From a virus, in IMG/VR virus record IMGVR_UViG_3300010392_001099, positions 1 through 42,387 of that record: a DNA stretch of 42,387 nt; one strand, 5' to 3'. The position numbers were made by a program, and so were the translations under genes. The notes beneath the pieces were generated by a model. It was not told where the DNA came from. It worked only from the letters and a program-made list of their open reading frames with translations, and made no database searches. Positions 2,652 to 35,617 of this stretch are shown in pieces. Each line of letters starts with the position of its first letter. Position 1 is the stretch's first letter.

Positions 2652-3437
2652 ATGGCCATTTCTCTCAACAACCTGGTCCGAAAGCGGGCCGACAAGCCTC
2701 CCATGATCGCGATCTATGGCAGGGGCAAAATGGGCAAGACGACGCTGGCGAGCGAATTCCCCGATCCGATCTTCCTGCAAACCGAAGACGGCTCCGGCGC
2801 GCTGGAAATCGTCAGCTTCTCCGAGGGGCCGATCACGCAATGGTCGGACGTGGATGCGGCGTTGCAGGAGCTTGCGACCGAGGATCACGAATTCCGCACG
2901 CTGGTGGTCGATAGCGTCACGCAGTTGGAGCCGCTGATCTGGGCTGAGGCGTGCAAGCGCAACAACTGGGACAGCATCGAAGCTCCGGGCTACGGCAAGG
3001 GGTATCTGGCGGCCGACGAAATCTGGCGCGAGTTCCTGAACGCCTGCACGTGGCTGCGCGATCACAAGCGCATGTGCATCGTGCTCATCGGTCATGAGGT
3101 GGTCGAGACGTTCAGCGATCCGGAGCGAGAGGACTACAACAGGTACAAGATGCGGCTGCACAAGCGGGCCGAGGCGCTGTTGCGCGAGCGGGTCGATATC
3201 GTCGGATTCCTCAACATGTCCGTCAGCCTGAACAAGGGCAAGAAAGGAGAAGATCGCGCCGTTGCGACCGGCTCCGGTCAGCGGCAGATCAACCTCGCAC
3301 CGCGCCCGACATTCGAGGCCGGGAACCGCTACGGGATGCCAGACAAGATCCTCATCAATCCGGGGCAGGGGTTTGCCGCCCTCGCCCCACACATGCCGGG
3401 CTTTTCCGGTGAACCCAAAGCCGCTGTGGCGGCCTGA
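2652..3437 (+). CDS. Sak4-like RecA-fold recombinase / AAA ATPase
   Basis: This 261-residue ATPase has a Walker A GRGKMGKTT (residues 23-31) and a Walker B TLVVDS (83-88), as in the AAA_24/Sak4 group of RecA-related single-strand annealing proteins. The downstream 162-nt-range partner, a DUF669 SSB-like protein, is the usual companion of Sak4. It should promote strand annealing during phage replication and recombination. GGAAGGAA upstream supports the ATG at 2652; a nearer ATG at 2645 is out of frame. The C-terminal 60 residues (GSGQRQINLAPRPTFEAGNR) match the usual tail of the family. Confidence 0.85.
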   Translation: MAISLNNLVRKRADKPPMIAIYGRGKMGKTTLASEFPDPIFLQTEDGSGALEIVSFSEGPITQWSDVDAALQELATEDHEFRTLVVDSVTQLEPLIWAEACKRNNWDSIEAPGYGKGYLAADEIWREFLNACTWLRDHKRMCIVLIGHEVVETFSDPEREDYNRYKMRLHKRAEALLRERVDIVGFLNMSVSLNKGKKGEDRAVATGSGQRQINLAPRPTFEAGNRYGMPDKILINPGQGFAALAPHMPGFSGEPKAAVAA

Positions 3438-3461
3438 TCGAAAGACAGAAAGGAAACGACA

Positions 3462-3947
3462 ATGGCAAATCTCGGTGGAGCCTACGAGGCTGGCGACGAA
3501 ACGATGGGCGAGCGCGACGCGCTTCCCGCTGGCGAATACGTCGCCGCACTCGTGAAGAGCGATCGCGTCGAGGCGAAGTCCGGTAACGGCAACGCCTACA
3601 TCAACTGCGAATTCGAGGTGCAGGACGGCGAAAAGCAGGGCCGTCGGTTCTGGACGCTGCTGAACCTCTGGAACAACAACTCTACCGCCGTCGATATCGC
3701 ACAGCGCGAGTTGAACAGCATGATGCACGCCTGCGGCAAGCTCCGCGTCGAGGATACCGAGGAACTGCACGGCATCCCGATGCTGGTCAAGCTCAAGGTC
3801 AAGACGGATGCACAGTACGGCGACAAGAACGAAGTTGCTTCCTACAAGCCCATGAACGCTGGCTCGGGCGGCAACTTCGGCGGGCAGCAGTCCCAAGCAT
3901 CCGGTGGCGCTGACAACTCGTCGGCACCGTGGAAGCGCAGCGCATGA
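3462..3947 (+). CDS. DUF669-type ssDNA-binding-like protein
   Basis: The order of segments LPAGEYVAAL, NCEFEVQDGEKQGRRFW, NSMMHACGKL and HGIPMLVKLKVK is that of DUF669 phage proteins, which are thought to act as OB-fold single-strand binding proteins. The tail is Gly/Ser/Gln-rich (GSGGNFGGQQSQASGG) and ends near APWKRSA, like the flexible C-terminus of SSB proteins but without the acidic tip. It sits 24 nt after the Sak4-like gene, so the two probably act as a recombinase and its ssDNA partner. Confidence 0.85.
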   Translation: MANLGGAYEAGDETMGERDALPAGEYVAALVKSDRVEAKSGNGNAYINCEFEVQDGEKQGRRFWTLLNLWNNNSTAVDIAQRELNSMMHACGKLRVEDTEELHGIPMLVKLKVKTDAQYGDKNEVASYKPMNAGSGGNFGGQQSQASGGADNSSAPWKRSA

Positions 3948-3954
3948 CGTAGCC

Positions 3955-3994
3955 GGGCGCGCGGGCTTAGTCGCCAAACCTACCCCGCGCGCCC
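3955..3994 (+). other. Perfect 11-bp GC stem-loop after the DUF669 gene
   Basis: GGGCGCGCGGG (3955-3965) pairs perfectly with CCCGCGCGCCC (3984-3994) around an 18-nt loop, starting 7 nt after the DUF669 stop. It lacks a T-tract. It could stabilise the upstream mRNA or separate expression of the recombination pair from the genes below. Confidence 0.55.
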
Positions 3995-4037
3995 ACTCAC
4001 AAGCTGAAATTCAATCCAGCCATGAGGAGGTTATTCC

Positions 4038-4268
4038 ATGGCACAGAAACACTATGCCTCGCTAGAAGGCACGAAGGTTTCGATCACCCACCTGACCGGC
4101 CCGTTTCGGCGCTGCGGATCGTGTGGCGGTATCGAGGCCACGCTGACACTCTCAGCACCCGGCACCCATGCAGCGCGGCTCGAATGCACCTTCTGCGGGG
4201 CGCACACAGCCTACCTGTCCCGCGATCACCTGGCCGCCATGAATGCGCAGAAGAAGGGGGCCGCGTGA
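4038..4268 (+). CDS. Zinc-ribbon-like small protein (76 aa)
   Basis: Two Cys pairs, CGSCGG and CTFCGA, about 30 residues apart frame a short beta-rich segment, which is a classic zinc-ribbon spacing. A strong Shine-Dalgarno, GAGGAGG, lies 8 nt upstream. The ATGA overlap with the next gene shows coupling. Such proteins are frequent in phage early operons, but the target is unknown. Confidence 0.65.
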   Translation: MAQKHYASLEGTKVSITHLTGPFRRCGSCGGIEATLTLSAPGTHAARLECTFCGAHTAYLSRDHLAAMNAQKKGAA

Positions 4269-4531
4269 TGTTGCAACCCAGAACCGAAGCCCTCGCATAC
4301 CGCATCTGGTGGCACGCTCAGGCCGCCGGATGGGATCTGACCCTGTACGATCTGGCAGAACTGACCGGCGAGAGCTGGCACCGCGTCCGGGCCGTCTGCC
4401 AGCGCAAGAACTGGCTGAGCAGGCTGCGGGTACAGACGCCACAGAGTGACCCACGCCACACGTTTTTCAGTGGCGAAGCCGTCCGCGACGAGCAATCGGC
4501 ACTCCGGCAGATCGGGGGTGCGGCATGGTAG
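4268..4531 (+). CDS. Putative HTH DNA-binding protein (87 aa)
   Basis: The stretch YDLAELTGESWHRVRAVCQR looks like a helix-turn-helix (roughly residues 29-48), preceded by RIWWHAQAAGWDLT. The ATG overlaps the upstream TGA; a longer open frame upstream is ignored because it crosses the zinc-ribbon gene in another phase. It overlaps the exonuclease start by 7 nt. Regulation or replication-initiation roles are both possible; none can be assigned. Confidence 0.6.
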   Translation: MLQPRTEALAYRIWWHAQAAGWDLTLYDLAELTGESWHRVRAVCQRKNWLSRLRVQTPQSDPRHTFFSGEAVRDEQSALRQIGGAAW

Positions 4532-5271
4532 CACTCCCTGCACAGGCAGAGGCCGAATTCGTCGCGGCACCGCTGCACCCGCGCGTGATCGAGGAGTACG
4601 AGGCATCCGATTACCTCTACTTCGACATTGAGACGATCCCAGATCAGCGCCCCGGCACGCTCGACAAGCTGCGCGAGGAAGTGACCGCGCCGGCGCGCTA
4701 CAGCAAGCCCGACAGTATTGATCTCTGGTTGGCCGAGAACCGCGAAAAGGCGGCGCTGGAGGCCCTGTCCAAGACGAGCTTCGATCCGGCTTACGGGCAT
4801 GTCTGTACCATCGGATGGGCCACGAACGACGGCGATGTGCGCGTCGAACATGCGGAAACCGTGGGCGAAGAGGCCGAAATCCTGTCCGCCTTCTTCAGGG
4901 CTGTGCCGCGCCGTGACGTGACGCTGGTCGGGCACAATATCGTCGGGTTCGATCTGCGGTTCCTGTCGCGCCGGGCACTCCTGCTGGGCGTCGAACTGCC
5001 GTCCGATCGGACGTGGCCGCGCGACCCTAAGCCGTGGGGCGCGGGCATCTTCGACACCATGCACGGTTGGGCCGGGACCGGGCGCGGCGACATGATCAGC
5101 ATGAACAAGCTCTGCGGCATTCTCGGCATCGTCGGCAAGGAGGACTTCGACGGTTCGATGGTCGCGGATGCATGGGCGGAGGGCCGGCACATGACCATCG
5201 CCCAGTATTGCGACGACGACGTGCGGCGGACGCGCGCCATTCATCAAAAATTCCTGACTGTGGGGTACTGA
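4525..5271 (+). CDS. 3'-5' exonuclease (DnaQ / PolB proofreading fold)
   Basis: The three exonuclease motifs are in order: ExoI YFDIET (Asp34, Glu36), ExoII GHNIVGFDLRF (Asp143) and ExoIII YCDDDV (Asp230-232). It is a stand-alone 248-residue RNase H-fold exonuclease like the proofreading domain of family B polymerases, without a polymerase domain. Here it lies near a Sak4 recombinase, a beta clamp and a PrimPol. It could trim 3' ends in recombination or proofread for another polymerase. Confidence 0.85.
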   Translation: MVALPAQAEAEFVAAPLHPRVIEEYEASDYLYFDIETIPDQRPGTLDKLREEVTAPARYSKPDSIDLWLAENREKAALEALSKTSFDPAYGHVCTIGWATNDGDVRVEHAETVGEEAEILSAFFRAVPRRDVTLVGHNIVGFDLRFLSRRALLLGVELPSDRTWPRDPKPWGAGIFDTMHGWAGTGRGDMISMNKLCGILGIVGKEDFDGSMVADAWAEGRHMTIAQYCDDDVRRTRAIHQKFLTVGY

Positions 5272-11986: not shown

Positions 11987-12312
11987 CCTACCTCCCCGGA
12001 TACCCGTGCCCCGTCTGCCGGAGAGCAGGCGGCAAGATCACGATCTCGATGGGCGGCGAACGCATGGAAAGCCCGTGCAGCATCGAATGCGCCGCCCTCT
12101 ACATCAAAGCCAAGGGACAGCCGAAAATGGAGCAATTCGAGCGCGAGGCCGCTGCGGAAGGTGGTAATGCGGGCGGTCAGTATCTCGACCGGATCGGCAA
12201 GACGGACCTCGCCAGCCTCACCCGCGAGGAATGGGAAGAGTTCTGTGCGCTGATCTTCATCGGTGCCTGCGACGCACTGCGCAAGCGGGCTGACGACGAT
12301 ATTCCATTTTAG
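11983..12312 (+). CDS. Zinc-finger-like phage protein (109 aa)
   Basis: PCPVCRRAGGKI and PCSIECAALY give a CxxC-x(n)-CxxxC arrangement at the N-terminus, like DUF6511-type phage proteins, though that identification is from memory. The C-terminal half is helical and acidic (LTREEWEEFCALIFIGACDAL). It is coupled by 4 nt to the helicase stop and lies 9 nt before the cytosine methyltransferase. Confidence 0.6.
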   Translation: MTYLPGYPCPVCRRAGGKITISMGGERMESPCSIECAALYIKAKGQPKMEQFEREAAAEGGNAGGQYLDRIGKTDLASLTREEWEEFCALIFIGACDALRKRADDDIPF

Positions 12313-12321
12313 GAGGTGAAG

Positions 12322-13740
12322 GTGAATGACATGGTGCTACCTCCCCGACACGGCCTCTCCCTCTGCGCAGGCGGCGGCGGACTTGACATGGGTCTTGGAC
12401 TTGCCGAGCCGGGCTTTGCCACCTCCTGCTACGTCGAGATCGAGGAATACCCCCGCAGCACCCTCATCGCAGGGCAGCGCGCCGGATACCTCCATACCGC
12501 GCCAATCTGGGACGACCTCAAGCGGTTCAACGCCGTGCCATGGCGCGGACAGATCGACACCTTGCTCGCAGGATACCCATGCCAGCCGTTTTCCCAAGCG
12601 GGACAGCGAAAGGGCGAGAATGACCCGCGCCACCTATGGCCCGACATCGAACGGATCATCGGAGAGCTTGGCCCCGGCCTGCGCTGGTGCCTATTCGAGA
12701 ATGTTGCGGGGCACCTCACCCTTGGCCTTGAAACCGTGGTGCGCGCCCTACAAGGAATGGGTTTCACGCCTGCGGTTGGCGTATTCTCAGCGGAAGAAGT
12801 TGGCGCGCCGCATGAAAGACAACGGGTCTTCATTGTGGCCCACCGCGCAATCGAGGGATGTGCGCAGCGGCGACATTCCGGGAGGGAAGAGGCAGCAACG
12901 GAAGGCGGCTCAGGGCTGGTCGCAAAATCTGAACGATGTGGCGGAGGCCAAGAACTGGCCCACACCGATGGCCGGAACCCCGGCGCAGAACGGCAACAAC
13001 GCGGCGGGCAACAACGACTTCACCCGGAAGGCGGAGGAACTGGCTTCTGCGATGTGGATGACGCCAGTGGCGAACGACGACAACAAGTCGCCAGAGGCTC
13101 ACATGGCGATGAAGGCCAGAATGAAGGGCGGTCCGAGAAAGACCGTAACCAGCCTGCAAGTGCAAGCCAAGATGTGGACCACCCCACAAGCGCACGATGT
13201 GACGGCGCGGGGCAGCGGTCAGAAGCCGACATCGAAGGCCGGGAACGCCTGCCTGGCGAGGGATGCGATGAATTGGCCGACACCGGCGAGCCGGGACCAC
13301 AAGGGCGAGAACGGCGCGGCGCACCTGACCAACGGGACCGGCCGGCTGCATCTGGATCAGCCTCCGAATTTCGTCGCCCATTGCTTCACCCCCCCGGCCC
13401 AGCGGATATGGACCACTGGCGTGCCGCCCTCGATCTGGCGCCCGATCTCGCGCCGGCTGTTGCGCTCGGCGACATCGCAAGTGTCGCAGGTGTCGCTGCG
13501 CAGATGGTTGCGGCAGGGCACATGGCGGAAGCGGAGGCTGAATCCATTGTTCGTGGAATGGCTGATGGGATGGCCGCCAGGACACGCGCTCTGCGCCTGC
13601 TCGGCAACGGGGTTCATCCATTGGCAGCAGCATATGCGTGGCGCTCTCTCAGCTATGCCCACGGCCTCGGGCGCGTGGATCTGGGAGCCACAGAAGGACG
13701 GGCCGAAGCTGGAAACATATGCGGATGTGAGCCTTTTTGA
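12322..13740 (+). CDS. DNA (cytosine-5) methyltransferase, frame A
   Basis: It transfers a methyl group to C5 of cytosine. Motif I SLCAGGGGLDMGLGL lies at about residues 12-26, motif IV GYPCQPFSQAG has catalytic Cys87, motif VI is FENV (Glu126), motif VIII is QRVFIVA (167-173) and motif X is LLGNGVHPLAAAYAW (GNGV 428-431). The middle (about 175-380) is low-complexity, with LAHTDGRN, VDDASGER and LADTGEPG repeats in place of an ordinary target-recognition domain. AGGAGG at 12311-12316 fits GTG 12322; ATG 12331 is the alternative. From about 12830 the +1 frame is open over the same DNA and has stronger codon bias (see 12812-13747). No partner nuclease is present. Confidence 0.85.
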   Translation: MNDMVLPPRHGLSLCAGGGGLDMGLGLAEPGFATSCYVEIEEYPRSTLIAGQRAGYLHTAPIWDDLKRFNAVPWRGQIDTLLAGYPCQPFSQAGQRKGENDPRHLWPDIERIIGELGPGLRWCLFENVAGHLTLGLETVVRALQGMGFTPAVGVFSAEEVGAPHERQRVFIVAHRAIEGCAQRRHSGREEAATEGGSGLVAKSERCGGGQELAHTDGRNPGAERQQRGGQQRLHPEGGGTGFCDVDDASGERRQQVARGSHGDEGQNEGRSEKDRNQPASASQDVDHPTSARCDGAGQRSEADIEGRERLPGEGCDELADTGEPGPQGRERRGAPDQRDRPAASGSASEFRRPLLHPPGPADMDHWRAALDLAPDLAPAVALGDIASVAGVAAQMVAAGHMAEAEAESIVRGMADGMAARTRALRLLGNGVHPLAAAYAWRSLSYAHGLGRVDLGATEGRAEAGNICGCEPF

Positions 13741-13747
13741 ATGCTGA
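12812..13747 (+). CDS. Overlapping +1-frame WPTP-repeat protein (frame B)
   Basis: The +1 frame is open from 12326 to 13747; the protein-like part starts near ATG 12812. It holds five W-[PMT]-T-[PA] repeats (Trp9, 49, 82, 122, 155: LWPTAQSRD, NWPTPMAG, MWMTPVAND, MWTTPQAHD, NWPTPASRD) and then LNPLFVEWLMGWPPG (Phe247 onward). I recall the last block from phage methyltransferase-associated proteins. By hand count over about 12955-13090, third codon positions are G or C in 39 of 45 codons here, against 24 of 45 in frame A. It may be expressed from its own start, or fused to the catalytic half by a +1 frameshift near 12830. It ends 7 nt inside the primase gene. Confidence 0.6.
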   Translation: MKDNGSSLWPTAQSRDVRSGDIPGGKRQQRKAAQGWSQNLNDVAEAKNWPTPMAGTPAQNGNNAAGNNDFTRKAEELASAMWMTPVANDDNKSPEAHMAMKARMKGGPRKTVTSLQVQAKMWTTPQAHDVTARGSGQKPTSKAGNACLARDAMNWPTPASRDHKGENGAAHLTNGTGRLHLDQPPNFVAHCFTPPAQRIWTTGVPPSIWRPISRRLLRSATSQVSQVSLRRWLRQGTWRKRRLNPLFVEWLMGWPPGHALCACSATGFIHWQQHMRGALSAMPTASGAWIWEPQKDGPKLETYADVSLFEC

Positions 13748-20844: not shown

Positions 20845-21992
20845 AGCAGGTCCGCGTCAACGTCCGCACGGCGGTCAACGCATCGACCATCCGCCGCGAG
20901 CGCCGCGACGGGCGCGACGTGATCGTCGTCCCCAGCGCGACCCTTCCCGACGGCGTGGTGATGAATGGCATCCGCTACCCGGCCGAGGAAATCGACAAGA
21001 GCTATTCCAGCCTCGACGGCACCCCGGCGCCACTGGGGCACCCGACCATCAACGGCAGCTTCGTGAGCTCGTCCGACCCGCGCGGCATGGTGCGGGGCTT
21101 CGTCGGCGCGTGGAACGAGAACGTCCGCCGCGATGGCGGCCGCGTCCTGCTCGACAAGGTGATCGACGTGGAATTCGCAAAGCAGCTTGAGGGCGGCAAG
21201 AACGTCCTGAACGCGATCGACAGGGGCGAGCCGATCCACACGTCCACCGGCCTGCTGTGCGAGCTTGAGGCCTGCAACGGCGATCAGCCGGACGGGGCAA
21301 AGCACGTCGCCCGAAACATGCTCTTCGACCACGACGCGATCCTCCTTGGCGAGGAAGGCGCGGCCACCCCCGATCAGGGCGTGGGGATGCTGGTCAACAA
21401 GGCCATTGGCAACGATGGCGAGGAAATCGAGGTCATCAACTCGGCATTTGAAGATGCCGAGCGTGAACTCGACTGGGCGGCAGATTCCGCCCTCCGAGCG
21501 GCTGAGAGGCTGGCACGAGTGCCGCTGCTCGACCGCATCAAGTCCGCGATCATGGAGGCGATTGGCTCCGAGCGGGAACCCTCTGCAAATCGAAAGGAAG
21601 CAGATATGGCTGACGACAAGCAGCTTGAAGAGCTTTCCGCGAAGGTGAACGCCCTCTCGGAAAGCGTGAACGGCATTGGCGATCTGATTGCCAATGCGGT
21701 CAAGGACGCGGTGAAGCCGCTGACCGACGCGCAGGCCGAAATGCAGGCCAACGCCAAGGCTCGGGAAGACGCCGAAAAGGCCGAACTGGTCAACAAGGTG
21801 GTCAAGGCGAACATCCTGACCGAGGACGTTGCCAAGGGCCTGACCAATGCCGCACTGAAGGCTCTGGCCGACAAGGCGGCGCCCGGCAAGGCGGCCCCGC
21901 TGAACGCTGGCGGCTTCGGCGGCGGAAATGACGACGAGTTCGCCGGCTACAGCCTGAACGCGGCGATCGACGCTGACAAGGAGGGCAAGTGA
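20841..21992 (+). CDS. DUF2213 prohead protease fused to a scaffold domain
   Basis: The N-terminal 240 residues carry RYPAEEIDKSYSSLDGTPAP, LGHPTINGSF and GEPIHTSTGL, a DUF2213 prohead protease. The C-terminal 128 residues are a charged, Ala/Lys/Glu-rich coiled coil ending in a Gly-rich stretch, which is a scaffold. It would cleave scaffold and capsid termini during head maturation. An internal start at 21606 would give the scaffold alone. Confidence 0.8.
   Translation: MKQVRVNVRTAVNASTIRRERRDGRDVIVVPSATLPDGVVMNGIRYPAEEIDKSYSSLDGTPAPLGHPTINGSFVSSSDPRGMVRGFVGAWNENVRRDGGRVLLDKVIDVEFAKQLEGGKNVLNAIDRGEPIHTSTGLLCELEACNGDQPDGAKHVARNMLFDHDAILLGEEGAATPDQGVGMLVNKAIGNDGEEIEVINSAFEDAERELDWAADSALRAAERLARVPLLDRIKSAIMEAIGSEREPSANRKEADMADDKQLEELSAKVNALSESVNGIGDLIANAVKDAVKPLTDAQAEMQANAKAREDAEKAELVNKVVKANILTEDVAKGLTNAALKALADKAAPGKAAPLNAGGFGGGNDDEFAGYSLNAAIDADKEGK
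21606..21992 (+). CDS. Nested scaffolding protein (internal start)
   Basis: AAAGGAAG lies 5 nt before an in-frame ATG at 21606, giving a 128-residue product that begins MADDKQLEELSAKVNALSES, a coiled-coil scaffold. This mirrors lambda C/Nu3, where the scaffold is made in excess from an internal start in the protease gene. The Shine-Dalgarno within coding sequence and its exact fit to the domain boundary are the evidence. Confidence 0.6.
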   Translation: MADDKQLEELSAKVNALSESVNGIGDLIANAVKDAVKPLTDAQAEMQANAKAREDAEKAELVNKVVKANILTEDVAKGLTNAALKALADKAAPGKAAPLNAGGFGGGNDDEFAGYSLNAAIDADKEGK

Positions 21993-22429
21993 TGTCCGGC
22001 AACACCATCTATCGCGGCCCGATCGACAAGCAGCCGCGCACCATCCAGAAGGAGGTCGCGGGCGCCTACGCCGTCGGCACCTTCGTGGAGGAAACCGCCA
22101 CCACTCTGGCGCAGATCACCACCGCGCTGGCAAAGCGCCCGCTGCTGCTGGGCAACGCCGACTATGCCGGGCAGACCATTGCCACGGCCTACACCTCCGG
22201 CGATACCGGCGTGGCCTATGAGATCGAGCCGGGGCAGGCCTATCAGGCCGCAATGGCCGCTGCGACCTATGCCAAGGGCGATCCGCTGACCATCGCAGCA
22301 TCGGGCCGACTTGCCGCCGCGACTGCCGCGACCGTCGTGGTTGCGTTCTTCGATGGTACTCCGGGGGCCGTCACTGCTGGCGACCTGGCGGACGTGATCA
22401 TCGCCAACTTCTACACTGTCCCGGTCTAA
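21992..22429 (+). CDS. Probable capsid decoration (cement) protein
   Basis: A 145-residue beta-rich protein (AGAYAVGTFVEETATTLAQI, TVVVAFFDGT, DVIIANFYTV) lying between the scaffold and the major capsid gene. That is where small head-decoration proteins are encoded. Strands and Gly/Ala/Thr content fit a cement protein; homology is not certain. The ATG overlaps the upstream stop. It is followed directly by AAGGAGG of the capsid gene. Confidence 0.6.
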   Translation: MSGNTIYRGPIDKQPRTIQKEVAGAYAVGTFVEETATTLAQITTALAKRPLLLGNADYAGQTIATAYTSGDTGVAYEIEPGQAYQAAMAAATYAKGDPLTIAASGRLAAATAATVVVAFFDGTPGAVTAGDLADVIIANFYTVPV

Positions 22430-22441
22430 GGAGGGCCTGAC

Positions 22442-23431
22442 ATGCTTCGATTCACTCCCGAACAGGAGCGGTTGATTGTCGCCAATCGCCGCTCCTTCAA
22501 TGAGCGCCAGACCGCTCTGAACGCCGCCATGGCCGGCAACGTCATGCTGGGCAACGCCTATGCCCTGCCCAAGGATGTCTGGGGCCAGTGGGACCGCGAA
22601 GGCGTCGAGGTCCAGCGTTCGACGCTGGGCGTCTTCAATGACCTGGCGGCCAGCGTCTCGACCCCGATGGCGATCGGCAAGCTGATCCACTACTTCCAGA
22701 CCATCAGCGACAGCGGCTCTGCCAACATCTCGCTGGATGGCCGATCGAAGGCCCGGACCGACAAGCCGACCTTCGATTACCACGGCACCCCGCTGCCGAT
22801 CATCGACAGCACGTTCAGCTTCGGCTGGCGCGAGGTCGAGGCGGCGCGGTCGGAAGGCTTCCAGCTTGACGCCTCGGCCCGCACCAATGCCATGCGCAAG
22901 GTTGCCGAGACGCTGGAAACCGGCGTGCTGGATGGTTACTCGACCATCACCGTGAATGGTCAGACCTCTTATGGCCTGCGGACGCATCCCAAGCGCAACA
23001 CCCGCTCGACCACGAACACCCTGAACGGGGCGACGGGCGCGCAATGGCTGGCGGATATCACCGCGACCCTGAAGTTGCTGCATGGCGACAACTTCAAGGT
23101 GCCGGCGACGATCTACGTCAACTGGGATGACTGGTTCTATGCAACCAGCACCGAGTACACCTCCGGCTATCCCAAGACCATCGCGCAGCGCGTGCTGGAA
23201 CTGGGCGGCGTCCGCGAGATCATCCCGGTTGACAGCCTGAGCGCCGACGAGCTTCTGGCTGTGGTCAAGGATCGCCGCGTCGTCTCGCTGCTGAACGGGA
23301 TGCCGATGCACACCCGGGCGCAGATGCGGGCGAACCCGGAGGACGACTACAACTTCGTCACCATGGCGGCCGCTGCCGTCGAGGTGAAGTTCGATGCCGA
23401 GAACAACTGCGGCATCGCTCACTCGACCTGA
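22442..23431 (+). CDS. Major capsid protein
   Basis: A 329-residue protein in the position of the major capsid subunit, directly after protease/scaffold and decoration genes. Segments such as SFGWREVEAARSEGFQLD, TYGL-like SYGLRTHPKRNT, TIYVNWDDWFYATSTEY and VPVDSL-like IPVDSLSADELLAV read like HK97-fold capsid proteins of the DUF6260/DUF2184 groups. A strong AAGGAGG lies 6 nt upstream. It is the most highly expressed late gene expected and is followed by a stable hairpin. Confidence 0.8.
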   Translation: MLRFTPEQERLIVANRRSFNERQTALNAAMAGNVMLGNAYALPKDVWGQWDREGVEVQRSTLGVFNDLAASVSTPMAIGKLIHYFQTISDSGSANISLDGRSKARTDKPTFDYHGTPLPIIDSTFSFGWREVEAARSEGFQLDASARTNAMRKVAETLETGVLDGYSTITVNGQTSYGLRTHPKRNTRSTTNTLNGATGAQWLADITATLKLLHGDNFKVPATIYVNWDDWFYATSTEYTSGYPKTIAQRVLELGGVREIIPVDSLSADELLAVVKDRRVVSLLNGMPMHTRAQMRANPEDDYNFVTMAAAAVEVKFDAENNCGIAHST

Positions 23432-23438
23432 CCAAGCT

Positions 23439-23462
23439 GAGGGGCCGGGAGACCGGCCCCTC
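23439..23462 (+). other. Stable hairpin with GAGA tetraloop after the capsid gene
   Basis: GAGGGGCCGG and CCGGCCCCTC form a perfect 10-bp stem with a GAGA (GNRA) loop, 7 nt after the capsid stop. No T-tract follows. It probably protects the capsid mRNA from 3' exonucleases or sets a partial stop that lowers downstream expression. Confidence 0.7.
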
Positions 23463-23488
23463 CGGCACACCGCACCGGGAGTAAATCC

Positions 23489-23752
23489 ATGACCCATCCA
23501 TTCGCCGCCAGTAACGCACCATACGGGCCGACCGCGCCGTCTCTGGATATGGTGCCGCTTTCGGCCCCGGCGTCCGATACTGCCCTGACCATGACCTGTC
23601 GCAGCTTCCTCGTCCTGACGGACGGCACGGTATCTGTGACCACGCAGGCGGGGGAGGACCGGACGTTCACCGCATCGGCAGGAATGATGATCACCTGCTG
23701 CATCACGCATGTGCTTGCGGCGACGACCTCTGACCTGCTGCTCTTCCAGTGA
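23489..23752 (+). CDS. Small beta-rich structural protein, spike-base-like (87 aa)
   Basis: Segments RSFLVLTDGTVSVTTQAGED and MITCCITHVLAATTSDLLLF follow the strand pattern of the RCAP_Rcc01079 spike-base family (FxVxxxGxVxV..G..xTF..xGxxIxxxxxxVxxTGTTAxxI), a group known from the Rhodobacter gene transfer agent. GGGAG lies 8 nt upstream. It may form a head spike or fibre base. The similarity is by pattern only. Confidence 0.5.
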   Translation: MTHPFAASNAPYGPTAPSLDMVPLSAPASDTALTMTCRSFLVLTDGTVSVTTQAGEDRTFTASAGMMITCCITHVLAATTSDLLLFQ

Positions 23753-30028: not shown

Positions 30029-33000
30029 ATGTCAGCAACCGCAGGCACTTTGACTCTTGTCGTAGACAGTACGTCCGTCTCTAAAGGTGAGCGTGCCCTC
30101 GACAACTTCGCTCGTACCGGCGCGCGGACCGAGAAAAGCGTCAAGGGCGACATGGGGCAGATCGAACGGGCAATGGCGCGTCTGGGCCAGAAATCCGCTA
30201 CCATCGACAAGACGCTAAACGCCAGCCTCGGGCGCACCGCTGCGATCTCCAAGACCGTGGCGCGCGGGCTGGTGTCTCTGGCGGCAGGCCTCACCAGCAT
30301 TGCGGCCGTCAAGCACGCGGTGACAGAGGCGCGGAACTTCAATGCCGCACTGTCTGAAACATCTACTCTGCTGGAAGGAACGCCAGCCCAGATGGAGGCG
30401 CTGCGGACGAGCGCAATGGACCTGTCGCGGGCCTATGGTGGGTCGGCAACGGCTCAGGTCGAGGCGTTCTATCAGGCGATCAGCGCGGGCGCGGGAAATG
30501 TTTCGCAGGCCGCGCGACTGCTCGACCAGGCGAACAAGCTGGCAATCGGTGGCGTGACCAGCGTGACAACAGGCGTGGACGCACTGACCACCGCCATGAA
30601 TGCCTATGCCGCCCAAGGGATGACCGCCGCGCAGGCGTCGGATGCGCTGTTCGTCGGCATGAAGGCGGGCAAAACGACAGTTGGCGAGTTGGGCGCATCA
30701 CTCGGGCAGGTTGTGCCCATTGCTGCTGCGGCAGGGGTGAGCTTTGATGAAACCGTCGCCGCTGTTGCCGCGCTGACGACCCAAGGCCAAACTACCGCGA
30801 TGGCGACGACCGGTCTGCGGCAGGTGATCGCCAGCGTGATCGCGCCGACCAAGCAGGCAAGCGACATGGCCGCGCAGCTTGGCATCGCGTTCAACGCGCA
30901 ATCTCTCGAAGCGCAGGGGCTCGCCGCGTTCCTTGATCAAATTGTGGAAAAGACCGGCGGCAATACCGAGGCGATGGCGCAACTGTTCGGATCGGTTGAG
31001 GCGCTGAACGCCGCCCTGGCATTCGCTGGCGGCGCTGGCGGGACGTTCTCCGAGATCATGGCGGACATGGCCGAAAAGGCCGGGGCCACTGACGAGGCAT
31101 TCATAAAGGTCGCGGACTCGCTCGACAAGCGCATGTCGTTCGCCTTCGGGAAGATCGGAACGCTGGTCACGCAATTCGGCACAGCGATCCTTACCGTCAC
31201 GGTTCCGGCACTTGAGGCAATCGCGGCAGGAGCCGAATTTCTGTCCCAGAACTTCGACAGCGTGACGGGTATCGTCATTTCTTCTGCGGCCGCGCTGACC
31301 GCCTATTACCTACCGGCAGTGTACGGGGCTGTCACCGCAACCGGCGCATGGATTGCGTCCCTGATAACACTCAAGGGCGCGCTCTTGGCAACCGGGATCG
31401 GCGCGCTTGTCGTTGGCGCTGGACTATTGGTCGGGGAGTTCCTGAAACTGGTTCGGGCAACGGGCGGGTGGGGCAATGCACTCACCCTGCTAGGTCAGGT
31501 GGCGTCTGGCGTGTGGGAGGGGATCAAAGGCAGCGCGCTGTCCATCGTCCCCGCGCTCGGGGCTGTCTGGGCCGACATGCAGGCCGGTTTTGTTCGCGTC
31601 CTTGAGGCCATGTCGCTGCAATGGGGCAATTTCCTCTGGGGCCTTGGCGCAAAGCTGGACGGCATCCCGCTGTTTGGTTCGATGGCGCAAAGCCTGAAAG
31701 ACGCCTCCGACCGCGCGATTGACGGGATGATCGGACTGAATGCCGAGGCGTCCGCCCTTGAGGGTAAGGCGATCAGGCTTCGGGACGAGGCTGCAAGCAT
31801 GGCAACCGGAGGGTTCGACAAAGCGCGCGAGGCCGCTCAAAAGCTGGCCGCCGCGCTGTCCGCGACAGAAGGTGAGTCCGACGACACGAGCGATCAGGCA
31901 GCAAAGCTGAAGAAGATCCTCGACTCCCTGAGCACCAGCACCGGGAAAGCCGGGAAGGCCGCGAAGGATGCGGCTGAGCAGATCAAGGGCTTCAACGAAA
32001 CCTTGAAAGACGCGGCATATACCGCCGCCGAGTTCGGGGCCGAAAAGGCCAACATCATGATCGGCGGCATTGACAGCCTTGCCGATGCATGGGGCGATTT
32101 CGTTGTTTCCGGGTTCTCACGCTTTGAGGACTTCACCGACGCAATCGTAGGCTCTTTCAAGAGCATGTTGGCACAGATGATCGCGCTTGCAGCGAAAAAC
32201 CAGATCATGATCGGGCTTGGCCTTGGTGGGGTCGGCGGTTCTGCTGTCGCTGGCGCAGTAGGTGGCGGCGCGGGCGGTATCGGGAACCTGCTTGGCCTCG
32301 GGAACCTGTTCGGCGGGGGTCTGCTTGGCGGCGTCGGTAGCGGCTTGCAGGCGGCGCTCGGCATGGGCAGCTATGCCAGCGCGGGGATATTCAATATCGC
32401 GCAAAACGCGGCGACTGCCGTTGCCACCGGGGCGAATGCATTCACCGCCAGTATTGGCGCGGCACTCCCCGCAATCGGTATCGCGGTGGCCGGTATCGGC
32501 CTGCTCATGAAGGGCTTGAGCCAAAAATACGCGGGCACGGCACTGCGCGGCAGCATCGACGGCGAGGGCTTCGACGGCACATCCTTTGACTGGTATCGCG
32601 GTGGGTTTCTGCGCGGCGACAAGGCGACCTACAAGGACGTGCCGGAAGAACTGGCGCTGTATCTCGACCAAGCCATGACCGGCGTTGTCGGCAGCATCGA
32701 GACCTATGCGGACGCTCTGGCGCTCAGCACCAAGAAGGCGTTCAAGGTCGCGGGCGACGAATTCACGATCTGGCTGAACGACCTGAGTGACGAAGAAATT
32801 ATCCAAGCCCTGAACTCCGAGGTTGAGGCGGTCGCGGACGAGATGGCGGCGCTTGTGCTGGGCACGGACAAATTCACCCGCGCTGGCGAAAGCGCGATGG
32901 ACACGCTTACCCGGCTCGGCTCCGGTCTGATGGCGGTCAACGACGCAGCCGATTTGCTGAACCACCGGGTCTGGGATATCTCACTTGCCAGCGCAGACGC

Positions 33001-35617
33001 GGCGTCCGAGCTTGTCGAACTGTTCGGCGGGCTGGAAGCGATGACGGCTGCCGTCAACACCTACTTCACGACCGTCTACAGCGAGGAAGAACAGCTTGCG
33101 ATCAACACCCGCCGCCTGACCGATGTATTCGGCGATCTTGGCCTTGCGATGCCGAAGAGCCGGGACCAGTACCGGGCGCTTGTCGAGAGCATCGACACCA
33201 CCACCGACGCTGGCGCGGAACTCTATGCCACGCTGATCAGCATGGCCGGGGCGCTGGATGCGGTGCTGCCGTCGGTCTCGTCGCTGACGCAGGCGATCAT
33301 GGAATTGCAGGGCACCGCGCAAAGCGGGCTGGATCTGGCAATCTCGACGGCAGAGGCGGCGGCACGGGCCAACTCCAAGGCTGCTGGCGACTGGTACAAG
33401 GCATCGGACAGCATCCGCGCCTATATCGACAAGCTGCGCGGCTCCGACACGGCGCTGACCAACCCGACGCAGGCGCGCGCGTTCAACGAGATGCAGTTCC
33501 AGACCAACCTTGCCGCAGCTCTGGCGGGGGATCTGAACGCGGCCGGCAACCTGACCGGCAACGCCGAAAGCCTGCGGTCGAGTGTCAACGCCACGGCTAC
33601 CACCCGGCTTGAGGCGGCATTGGCCGAGGCGCGCATCCTGTCCGATCTGAGCCTTGCCGCCGGGGTGGGCGACATCGAGGGCGCGCGTCACGATGTGATT
33701 GCCGGGCTGCTGACAGATCAAGCCGACCTGATGCAGGAGGTCTCCGACTATCTGGCGGCTGGCAATGCGCTGACAGATGACATGATCACCACGCTGGAAA
33801 CGCAGCTTGGCGCGCTGGACGACGCAATCGCGGCGGCGGAACTGATCAACTACGCCTACCTCAAAGAGCGGCTGGCGGTGACGGTGGACGTGCTGGCCGA
33901 TGCCGATGTGCCGGCCTACCTGCGCAACCTGCTGACCAACGCAGCAGAGGGCGTGACCGGCTACATCGACTTCATCGCCCGTTCCGATCTTGATCCGGAT
34001 CTGAAATGGCTGGCGCTTGTCGGTGCGAGCGAGCACGTCAAGACGGTCGAGTACCTGGCTAAAAACGACCTCGGGAAAAAGCTGACCAAGCTTGCCGTAG
34101 GGACCGTTTCGACGCTGGAAAAGACGGTGCACCTGCTGGCCGGGGCCGGGCTGGACCGCGACACGATGCGGATTGCGCTGGCCGGGAACAGCGAGCTTTC
34201 CCGCGTGGTCAACGTCACCCTCGCCGCCGATGCGGACAAGCGGGCGAAGAAACTGGCGCTGGGGAATATCGGTGAATACTCGGTTGCCGTCATGGCGACC
34301 CTTGATCCGAAGATCAGCGATCGGGTGCGCCGGATCGTGTTCAAGGAGCAGGGCACCTATGCCGCCGTGATCGAGGCGGCAATCTCCGGCGACATGAGCG
34401 ACCGTGGCCGCCGCATCCTGCTCAAGCAGCAGGGCGACTATATCGCCAACATCACAGGCGTTCTGGGCTCTGACGTCAAGGACAACATCAAGCGACTCCT
34501 GCTCAGGGCGAACACCTCCGGCGTGCGGTCCCTGACGATACGTAAGGTCTGGGGTGAGCATATCACCAAAGCCGACAGGGCGCTGCTGCGGGAGGCTGAA
34601 ACAACCGCGCTGCGCACCATCACTGGTGCTGTCGACATGGGCGGCGTCAGCGCGGACGGCATGAAGCTGCTGAGGGCCTCCAAGAAGACCATCGACAAGA
34701 CGCTCAGGGGCACCGTGGACCTGTCCGGCCTCAATGACAGGCAGAAATCGCTACTGGATGCCGTCAAGGGGTCGGTTGACGGCAAGCTGACCCTCGGTGG
34801 CAGCTTCATCTTCGACCCATCCACCAGCTTCGAGACCCTGCTTTCCGACAGCGTTGAGGTTCCGATGAACGCCGCGAAAACGGCGATGGGCAACCTGCGC
34901 GGCTCCCTAAACGACCTGCGGGCGGCGGTCACGGCTGACACCACGTCGCGCGAGGTGGCAATGATCGAGGCACAGGGCGCAGCGGCAGCGATGACGCTGG
35001 CCGATAGCAGGTCTGAGCGCCGGGCCACGGCGGACGAACTGAGGGCTATCTTCTCGGCGGCTGGCGTCACATCGACCGGGCGCGGTATCAGCTTCAGCAA
35101 CGGCAAGCTTACCGCCGATGGGTATTGGTCGGGCACGAGCGCCGGGTTTGATCAGGTGATGGACGCGCTGCGCAGCACCTACGGCGTGAGCGGCGACACC
35201 ATCGCGCAGCTTACGTCCAAGGTCTTCGCCAGCGTGAATGACCCGGTTGCCAGCGGCAAAGCGGACCTGTCGAGCCTGCGGAAAGCATACCGCGACCTGA
35301 CCGGGGAAGTCGCCAGCTTCGACGGCGGCGGTCAGCTTGCGAACTGGGGCCGCTCCGGCGGGCTGGACGGCAAAGGCGGCAAGATGGCCGTTGTCCACCC
35401 GAACGAGAAGATCACCACCGGGGCGCAGAACAACGATCTGCTGGCAAGGCTGGACGAGCTTGTCGCCAGCAACGCTGCACTCAAGGCCGAGCTTCGCGCG
35501 TTCAAGGAGCAATCCCGCATGTACGACCGCGAGCAGACCAAGGCCGTGAAGGAGACCGCCAGCCTCGCCCGCAAGGCGGACGTGAGGGGCGTGACGATTG
35601 CCGTGGAGACCGTGTAA
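30029..35617 (+). CDS. Tail tape measure protein
   Basis: At 1862 residues it is by far the largest gene. The N-terminal part is helical, followed by a TP901-type tape-measure domain (RNFNAALSETSTLLEGTPAQ, FYQAISAGAG, LTTQGQTTAMATTGLRQV). Hydrophobic transmembrane-like stretches lie at about residues 410-470 and 725-830. From 33890 to 34554 (about residues 1288-1509) there are eight tandem repeats of about 27 residues. The rule of about 1.5 angstrom per residue predicts a tail of roughly 280 nm. AAGGAG lies 7 nt upstream. Confidence 0.9.
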   Translation: MSATAGTLTLVVDSTSVSKGERALDNFARTGARTEKSVKGDMGQIERAMARLGQKSATIDKTLNASLGRTAAISKTVARGLVSLAAGLTSIAAVKHAVTEARNFNAALSETSTLLEGTPAQMEALRTSAMDLSRAYGGSATAQVEAFYQAISAGAGNVSQAARLLDQANKLAIGGVTSVTTGVDALTTAMNAYAAQGMTAAQASDALFVGMKAGKTTVGELGASLGQVVPIAAAAGVSFDETVAAVAALTTQGQTTAMATTGLRQVIASVIAPTKQASDMAAQLGIAFNAQSLEAQGLAAFLDQIVEKTGGNTEAMAQLFGSVEALNAALAFAGGAGGTFSEIMADMAEKAGATDEAFIKVADSLDKRMSFAFGKIGTLVTQFGTAILTVTVPALEAIAAGAEFLSQNFDSVTGIVISSAAALTAYYLPAVYGAVTATGAWIASLITLKGALLATGIGALVVGAGLLVGEFLKLVRATGGWGNALTLLGQVASGVWEGIKGSALSIVPALGAVWADMQAGFVRVLEAMSLQWGNFLWGLGAKLDGIPLFGSMAQSLKDASDRAIDGMIGLNAEASALEGKAIRLRDEAASMATGGFDKAREAAQKLAAALSATEGESDDTSDQAAKLKKILDSLSTSTGKAGKAAKDAAEQIKGFNETLKDAAYTAAEFGAEKANIMIGGIDSLADAWGDFVVSGFSRFEDFTDAIVGSFKSMLAQMIALAAKNQIMIGLGLGGVGGSAVAGAVGGGAGGIGNLLGLGNLFGGGLLGGVGSGLQAALGMGSYASAGIFNIAQNAATAVATGANAFTASIGAALPAIGIAVAGIGLLMKGLSQKYAGTALRGSIDGEGFDGTSFDWYRGGFLRGDKATYKDVPEELALYLDQAMTGVVGSIETYADALALSTKKAFKVAGDEFTIWLNDLSDEEIIQALNSEVEAVADEMAALVLGTDKFTRAGESAMDTLTRLGSGLMAVNDAADLLNHRVWDISLASADAASELVELFGGLEAMTAAVNTYFTTVYSEEEQLAINTRRLTDVFGDLGLAMPKSRDQYRALVESIDTTTDAGAELYATLISMAGALDAVLPSVSSLTQAIMELQGTAQSGLDLAISTAEAAARANSKAAGDWYKASDSIRAYIDKLRGSDTALTNPTQARAFNEMQFQTNLAAALAGDLNAAGNLTGNAESLRSSVNATATTRLEAALAEARILSDLSLAAGVGDIEGARHDVIAGLLTDQADLMQEVSDYLAAGNALTDDMITTLETQLGALDDAIAAAELINYAYLKERLAVTVDVLADADVPAYLRNLLTNAAEGVTGYIDFIARSDLDPDLKWLALVGASEHVKTVEYLAKNDLGKKLTKLAVGTVSTLEKTVHLLAGAGLDRDTMRIALAGNSELSRVVNVTLAADADKRAKKLALGNIGEYSVAVMATLDPKISDRVRRIVFKEQGTYAAVIEAAISGDMSDRGRRILLKQQGDYIANITGVLGSDVKDNIKRLLLRANTSGVRSLTIRKVWGEHITKADRALLREAETTALRTITGAVDMGGVSADGMKLLRASKKTIDKTLRGTVDLSGLNDRQKSLLDAVKGSVDGKLTLGGSFIFDPSTSFETLLSDSVEVPMNAAKTAMGNLRGSLNDLRAAVTADTTSREVAMIEAQGAAAAMTLADSRSERRATADELRAIFSAAGVTSTGRGISFSNGKLTADGYWSGTSAGFDQVMDALRSTYGVSGDTIAQLTSKVFASVNDPVASGKADLSSLRKAYRDLTGEVASFDGGGQLANWGRSGGLDGKGGKMAVVHPNEKITTGAQNNDLLARLDELVASNAALKAELRAFKEQSRMYDREQTKAVKETASLARKADVRGVTIAVETV
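33890..34554 (+). repeat. Eight ~27-residue repeats in the tape measure protein
   Basis: Successive units read like D(x)DxxxRxLxLxxxxEYxxxVxxxLxx, for example DMSDRGRRILLKQQGDYIAN, KISDRVRRIVFKEQGTYAAV and SDLDPDLKWLALVGASEHVK. They diverge in sequence but keep period and hydrophobic positions. Unit number would alter protein length and thus tail length. Confidence 0.6.

Follow-up and report, generated by a model that had tools for sequence, protein, structure and literature searches.

The window analysed here is the whole 42,387-nucleotide stretch of a viral genome record (IMG/VR IMGVR_UViG_3300010392_001099), and it contains a cytosine methyltransferase locus at which two long reading frames run together on the plus strand. 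A preliminary description of the sequence had reported these coextensive frames, A (12322-13740) and B in +1, together with C5-methyltransferase motifs I, IV, VI and VIII in A before about 12840, motif X in A near 13603, and five W-x-T-P repeats in B. Both frames are open as reported, the motifs lie at those places, and the repeats are found as five W-x-T-P/A units. The features of the locus, and one variant of it among relatives, are:

12311-12316, plus strand: AGGAGG Shine-Dalgarno stretch, read from the sequence, 5 nt before the GTG of A and 9 nt before the ATG of B
12322-13740, plus strand: frame A (alpha), C5-cytosine methyltransferase catalytic chain, GTG start at 12322 (or GTG at 12316)
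12323-12325, plus strand: TGA in frame B directly 5' of the B ATG
12326-13747, plus strand: frame B (beta), +1 relative to A, ATG start at 12326, with family-wide selection to stay open
12326-12346, plus strand: N-terminus of B, MTWCYLP, fitting the conserved clade-1 start M(x)W-x-Y-x-P, with B-type substitutions at the 5' end
12361-12840, plus strand: motifs I-VIII, constrained in frame A, with stops kept out of frame B
12361-12387, plus strand: frame A motif I
12571-12594, plus strand: frame A motif IV (PCQPFS)
12697-12711, plus strand: frame A motif VI (ENV)
12817-12840, plus strand: frame A motif VIII
12836-13477, plus strand: middle region with five W-x-T-P/A units (12836, 12956, 13055, 13175, 13274), constrained in B, a stop-free disordered linker in A
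13390-13419, plus strand: frame A PPGPADMDHW, opening the conserved C-terminal segment of A in alignments; predicted confidence (pLDDT) rises again from residue 350
13538-13585, plus strand: frame B LNPLFVEWLMGWPPGH, motif-IX-like element, near-invariant in 75 relatives, its likeness to motif IX being by resemblance only
13603-13614, plus strand: frame A motif X (GNGV), +65 nt from LNP, with A-coded substitutions from +60 to +150
Relatives L048, L050, L112, L116 and L126, gene near 3300-4800 or equivalent: apparent three-chain version

Between 9799 and 16188 of the window, the pair has an HD-type phosphohydrolase-like gene and a DNA helicase (phrog_16) on one side and a DNA primase (phrog_3022) on the other; the primase gene overlaps the end of B by its ATG, at 13741.

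Frame A matches Pfam PF00145 over residues 12-176 only (E 3e-26), and its match to phrog_363 covers residues 12-446. AlphaFold (AF2), given an alignment of 69 relatives, models residues 1-185 at a pLDDT of about 95, residues 195-349 as a 155-residue disordered loop (pLDDT 31-41), and residues 350-450 mostly at pLDDT 70-95; Foldseek searches with this model return M.HhaI, M.HaeIII and DNMT2. A is thus a catalytic domain that has a disordered loop at the position expected for the recognition domain. A recognition domain is absent from the catalytic chain, the middle of A being disordered in AF2 and unconstrained in frame A according to substitutions. Nor did we meet several recognition domains between motifs VIII and IX in the catalytic frame; the repeated units belong to frame B, not A. 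The conserved C-terminal segment of A spans roughly 70-100 residues and includes motif X (GNGV...PLAAA), which is helical in the AF2 model and invariant in the alignment. A itself also contains a motif-IX-like stretch, ADGxxxR, which counts against the two-chain model proposed below.

The separate search of each frame that the preliminary description had suggested was informative in part, in that both frames match phrogs (for B, phrog_27243 at E 1e-43 and phrog_1008 at E 1e-23) and A matches Pfam, but B has no match in Pfam, among PDB sequences or by Foldseek. Structure prediction of B alone, also suggested there, gave a poor AF2 model (pLDDT 62, pTM 0.29), and we rejected B as a known fold. 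From 13538, B reads LNPLFVEWLMGW, and LNPxFVEWLMGWP is a pattern that we take to resemble motif IX (compare LHPRECARVMGYP of M.HhaI). When this LNP segment was grafted between parts of A in A-B-A chimeras, the Pfam methyltransferase match was not extended.

Openness alone is weak evidence for a gene in this window, because long antisense ORFs are common in such G+C-rich DNA; two on the minus strand, at 21947-23710 (587 codons) and 32981-34561 (526 codons), are probably products of composition. The preliminary description had counted third-position G+C by hand, and its counts prove correct to within one codon: G or C occupies 24/45 third positions of A and 40/46 of B over 12955-13090, 35/56 of A and 46/55 of B over 13410-13575, and 33/40 of A over 12400-12520. 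Its statement that the codon signal changes frame at about 12830 is correct in that the middle is B-type, and needs refinement in that B is open and conserved from 12326 already. When B was shuffled among synonymous codons, A stayed open over 12836-13744 in 0/5000 shuffles; the only real A stop in that interval is A's own. Conversely, shuffling A left no B-frame stop over 12322-12837 in 0.3% of cases, and the one real B stop there is the TGA directly before the B ATG. Shuffling A over the C-terminal part leaves B open in 12%, so that this direction is not significant at a single locus.

Relatives extend this comparison well beyond one locus. Scans with B recovered 79 viral loci and, with one genome taken per species, 78 loci in bacterial contigs, mostly from Alphaproteobacteria and also from some Myxococcus, Pseudomonas, Acidovorax relatives and others. 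Almost all of these loci keep A and B open side by side along the gene and have stops in the third frame; PCQ, ENV and GNGV lie in A and LNPxFVEWLMG in B, with GNGV most often +65 or +80 nt from LNP. A second clade (LNPxWVEWLMG) comprises at least 80 loci with the same frame relation as clade 1. A third group, with LNPAHSRWLMG, occurs in about 211 published phage records and, according to how stringent the search is, in 36 to 68 of the 5426 E. coli genomes.

Across about 190 of these loci, we shuffled synonymous codons in a reference frame and counted stops in the other two. In clade 1 as a whole, B carries 13 stops over the catalytic region against 208 expected, and A carries 41 over the repeats against 406 expected. 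The viral loci account for 9 (109.8 expected) and 26 (186.8 expected) of these, all 26 belonging to two of the split loci, L048 and L050; the bacterial loci account for 4 (98.6 expected) and 15 (218.8 expected). Over the end of the gene, A has 2 stops in the viral loci and 3 in the bacterial loci, compared with 53.7 and 73.2 expected. In the third frame, stops are not depleted over the middle and end and, over the catalytic region, lie close to expectation or moderately under it, and low-G+C members show the same stop depletion. For clade 2, A stops number 0 where 103 and 0 where 90 were expected, and depletion of B stops sets in only about 270 nt upstream of motif VIII, at the place of internal start codons.

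As a control, methyltransferases lacking LNP in the same bacterial genomes contain 70 stops against 67.9 expected, compared with 0 against 27 expected in the dual genes of those genomes; the sole open locus scored as lacking LNP (L199) is the same genome and place as a dual locus (L098) whose LNP the search pattern had missed. Furthermore, among loci picked on the C-terminus of A alone, motif X could be placed in 76, and 73 of these have LNP in B. The preliminary description had named homologues with one frame routinely broken as evidence against its proposal; in the relatives, stops instead fall far below expectation in both frames.

Substitutions between relatives, sorted by codon position, indicate which frame is constrained where, with the proviso that pairs ignore shared ancestry, so that the rates should be read as a pattern and not as a tally of independent changes. 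Over motifs I-VIII the rates at A positions 1, 2 and 3 are.12,.06 and.27, with A third positions fast; in the middle region they are.258,.058 and.040, with B third positions fast. B third positions are also fast over the first 60 nt of LNP, where the pattern in relatives is B-coded, and A third positions are fast again at motif X. Constraint along the gene therefore follows the order A (I-VIII), B (repeats), B (LNPxFVEWLMG), A (motif X). Motif X had been said to remain in A, and it does so as part of the conserved A segment with A-type substitutions. Clade 2 has the same substitution pattern, and in it both frames are constrained from about 180 nt upstream of motif VIII; a pair of E. coli alleles has too few substitutions for a frame preference. 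Two proteins whose constrained stretches interleave account for this pattern; one protein that changes frame once does not. Taken together with stop depletion, these codon-position substitutions make the suggested dual coding all but certain, with both frames kept by selection along the gene at this locus and in the family; homologues keep both open, and their constraint is interleaved.

The 5' end of the locus suggests how both frames might be initiated. B must start at or after 12326 because of the in-frame TGA at 12323-12325. With a B start 4 nt downstream of that of A, one ribosome-binding site can feed both frames, and the single AGGAGG could serve both starts. In clade 1, B is open back to the A start and begins with M(x)W-x-Y-x-P beside it. 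Conservation of this motif is not independent proof, because the search for it picks B-like residues. Not all clade-1 loci have it, and B stops occur upstream of motif VIII in a few of them; both points count against the two-chain model proposed below. An A-frame start lies within 12 nt of the B start in 64/64 loci, a figure that is in part trivial, since every ATGTGG includes a GTG. In clade 2, B starts are internal, about 200-300 nt before motif VIII, as in an E. coli example where AAAGGAG is followed by a B-frame ATG. Both frames are presumably translated at this locus.

In the five split loci, A stops exactly 24 nt after motif VIII and B is intact. Motif X then forms a separate ORF with its own conserved ATG 124-127 nt before LNP, preceded by a GAGGG- or GAAGG-like stretch resembling a ribosome-binding site. 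These loci suggest that the middle of A is dispensable and that three functional pieces are retained. Two further relatives are aberrant in other ways. In L017 (2961-4275), the motif X segment of A is fused to a long, charged, coiled-coil-like ORF without a catalytic domain, and the LNP-type end of B (LSPWFVEWLMGW) is still there, which looks like a recombination remnant. In L023 (1000-2100), the W-x-TP region alternates between two frames and LNP stands in a third relation to the N-terminus, reflecting either indels or a different arrangement.

We consider it likely that the overlapping same-strand genes encode two chains of one C5-cytosine DNA methyltransferase. According to this model, A would fold as the catalytic domain, with motifs I-VIII followed by a translated disordered linker and then the motif X helices, and B, read in +1 from a start 4 nt downstream of the A start, would bring what A is without, namely a target-recognition part made of a variable number of W-x-TP units and a motif-IX-like segment. 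The two chains would bind one another and function as a heterodimer, giving an orphan phage methyltransferase whose role would be to mark the DNA of the phage, for instance as protection from host restriction. The preliminary description had placed a target-recognition region in B, and this is the most likely function of B; the assignment, including motif IX, draws on complementarity, short resemblance and precedent, because B is matched by nothing in Pfam or the PDB, is modelled poorly by AF2 and did not extend the Pfam match in the chimeras. For the family as a whole, we lean with less assurance towards a corresponding account, in which catalytic and recognition chains of one methyltransferase are encoded in two frames with interleaved constraint, an arrangement common in phages and bacteria and mostly unrecognised, and in which one lineage with a three-chain version dropped the disordered linker.

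Alternatively, B may be a separate protein that overprints the methyltransferase gene but is no subunit of the enzyme, for example a regulator, an anti-restriction factor or a homing function. The lack of a domain match in B agrees with this idea, as does the published ShiLan element, an out-of-frame HNH endonuclease in mycobacteriophage methylases whose methylase-frame reading is thought to form a loop (PMC11855218). The likeness to our locus is that a second protein lies in another frame within a phage methylase gene; however, ShiLan is a sporadic mobile insert with an HNH domain, and no HNH or other endonuclease Pfam domain was found in 55 B proteins. The association of B with A is near-obligate rather than sporadic, and the constrained segments of B fall where A is without an ordered recognition domain. 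We regard a separate protein as unlikely.

The preliminary description had also raised a +1 shift at motif VIII, and a programmed frameshift there would yield an A-B fusion besides full A, and hence two enzymes with different recognition regions. The first W-x-TP unit does begin 4 or 10 nt past motif VIII in most loci, and the end of A 24 nt past motif VIII in the five split relatives could be read in the same way. In those relatives, however, B runs through intact past the A stop, and motif X is equipped with an ATG and a ribosome-binding-like site of its own. B is moreover open, with stops depleted, upstream of motif VIII to its own start (clade 1) or to internal start codons (clade 2), a stretch that a shift product would not read in the B frame, and has conserved N-terminal residues and a start codon. 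A single shift also fails to explain the constraint because the codon signal goes back to A after LNP. As the main route to a second product, such a shift is improbable. That A is the sole gene, with B open through G+C-rich composition as other long spurious ORFs in the window are, or that a base error near 12830, where the codon signal switches, divides one gene into two frames, are both negligible explanations, ruled out by the shuffles, the undepleted third frame, low-G+C members, matched controls and B-type substitutions in the middle in the first case, and in the second by recurrence in about 190 tested loci from many assemblies, finished phage records and E. coli chromosomes and by the return of the signal to A at motif X.

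The two-chain methyltransferase that we favour has precedents among split enzymes. Lee, Kam and Shaw reportedly found in 1995 that the small chain of M.EcoHK31I lies in an alternative frame within the gene of the large chain. M.EcoHK31I needs two polypeptides, the larger carrying motifs I-VIII and X, as A does here, and the smaller carrying motif IX; its predicted recognition domain has been assigned to the large chain (PMC3404938). Our locus likewise has two conserved coding frames, and differs by description in that B of clade 1 overlaps nearly all of A from an adjacent start, that B has up to five or more W-x-TP units, and that in A a long disordered linker replaces the recognition domain. 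M.AquI is another split C5-methyltransferase, in which the catalytic motifs are carried by one polypeptide and part of the recognition region by another, with motif X together with IX on the small subunit (PMC3404938), whereas here X remains on the catalytic chain. Because some phage records already list both frames as genes, we regard the arrangement as a variant, widespread but under-annotated, of the two-polypeptide C5-methyltransferase organisation. We found no account of the family-wide overlap in the open-access literature.

Long same-strand overlaps kept by selection in both frames are rarely documented in prokaryotes, and here several hundred loci share one of about 470 codons, in families that are usually annotated in one frame only. 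Our interpretation would explain why many phage methyltransferases seem to be without a recognition domain, would correct annotation pipelines, and would provide a clear example of overlapping genes in which functional constraint is segregated. If it is true, the frame arrangement ties the recognition chain to the catalytic chain in inheritance, expression and exchange.

Existing records give a mixed picture of this gene pair. In Escherichia phage K1ind3 (GU196281), an 'Mte8-like' ORF29 is nested in the C-specific methylase ORF30, 'Mte8' being presumably an E. coli methylase entry, and Xanthomonas phage PhiXhv-28 has paired CDS with both frames annotated. In these two records, as at our locus, the inner frame is +1, and in K1ind3 LNPAHSRWLMG lies near its end; they differ in that the inner frame is nested with an internal start instead of an adjacent one, and the records come without analysis of the overlap. 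Most of the other records examined annotate one frame, sometimes the catalytic frame and sometimes the other, both called 'DNA methyltransferase'; B alone is at times named a methyltransferase. In Acidovorax phage Alfacinha1 (L096, 1434-2567) and Synechococcus phage Ssp-JY39 (L094, 1895-3010), only B is annotated and the catalytic A is left unannotated, B being deposited in one of them as 'cytosine-specific methyltransferase'.
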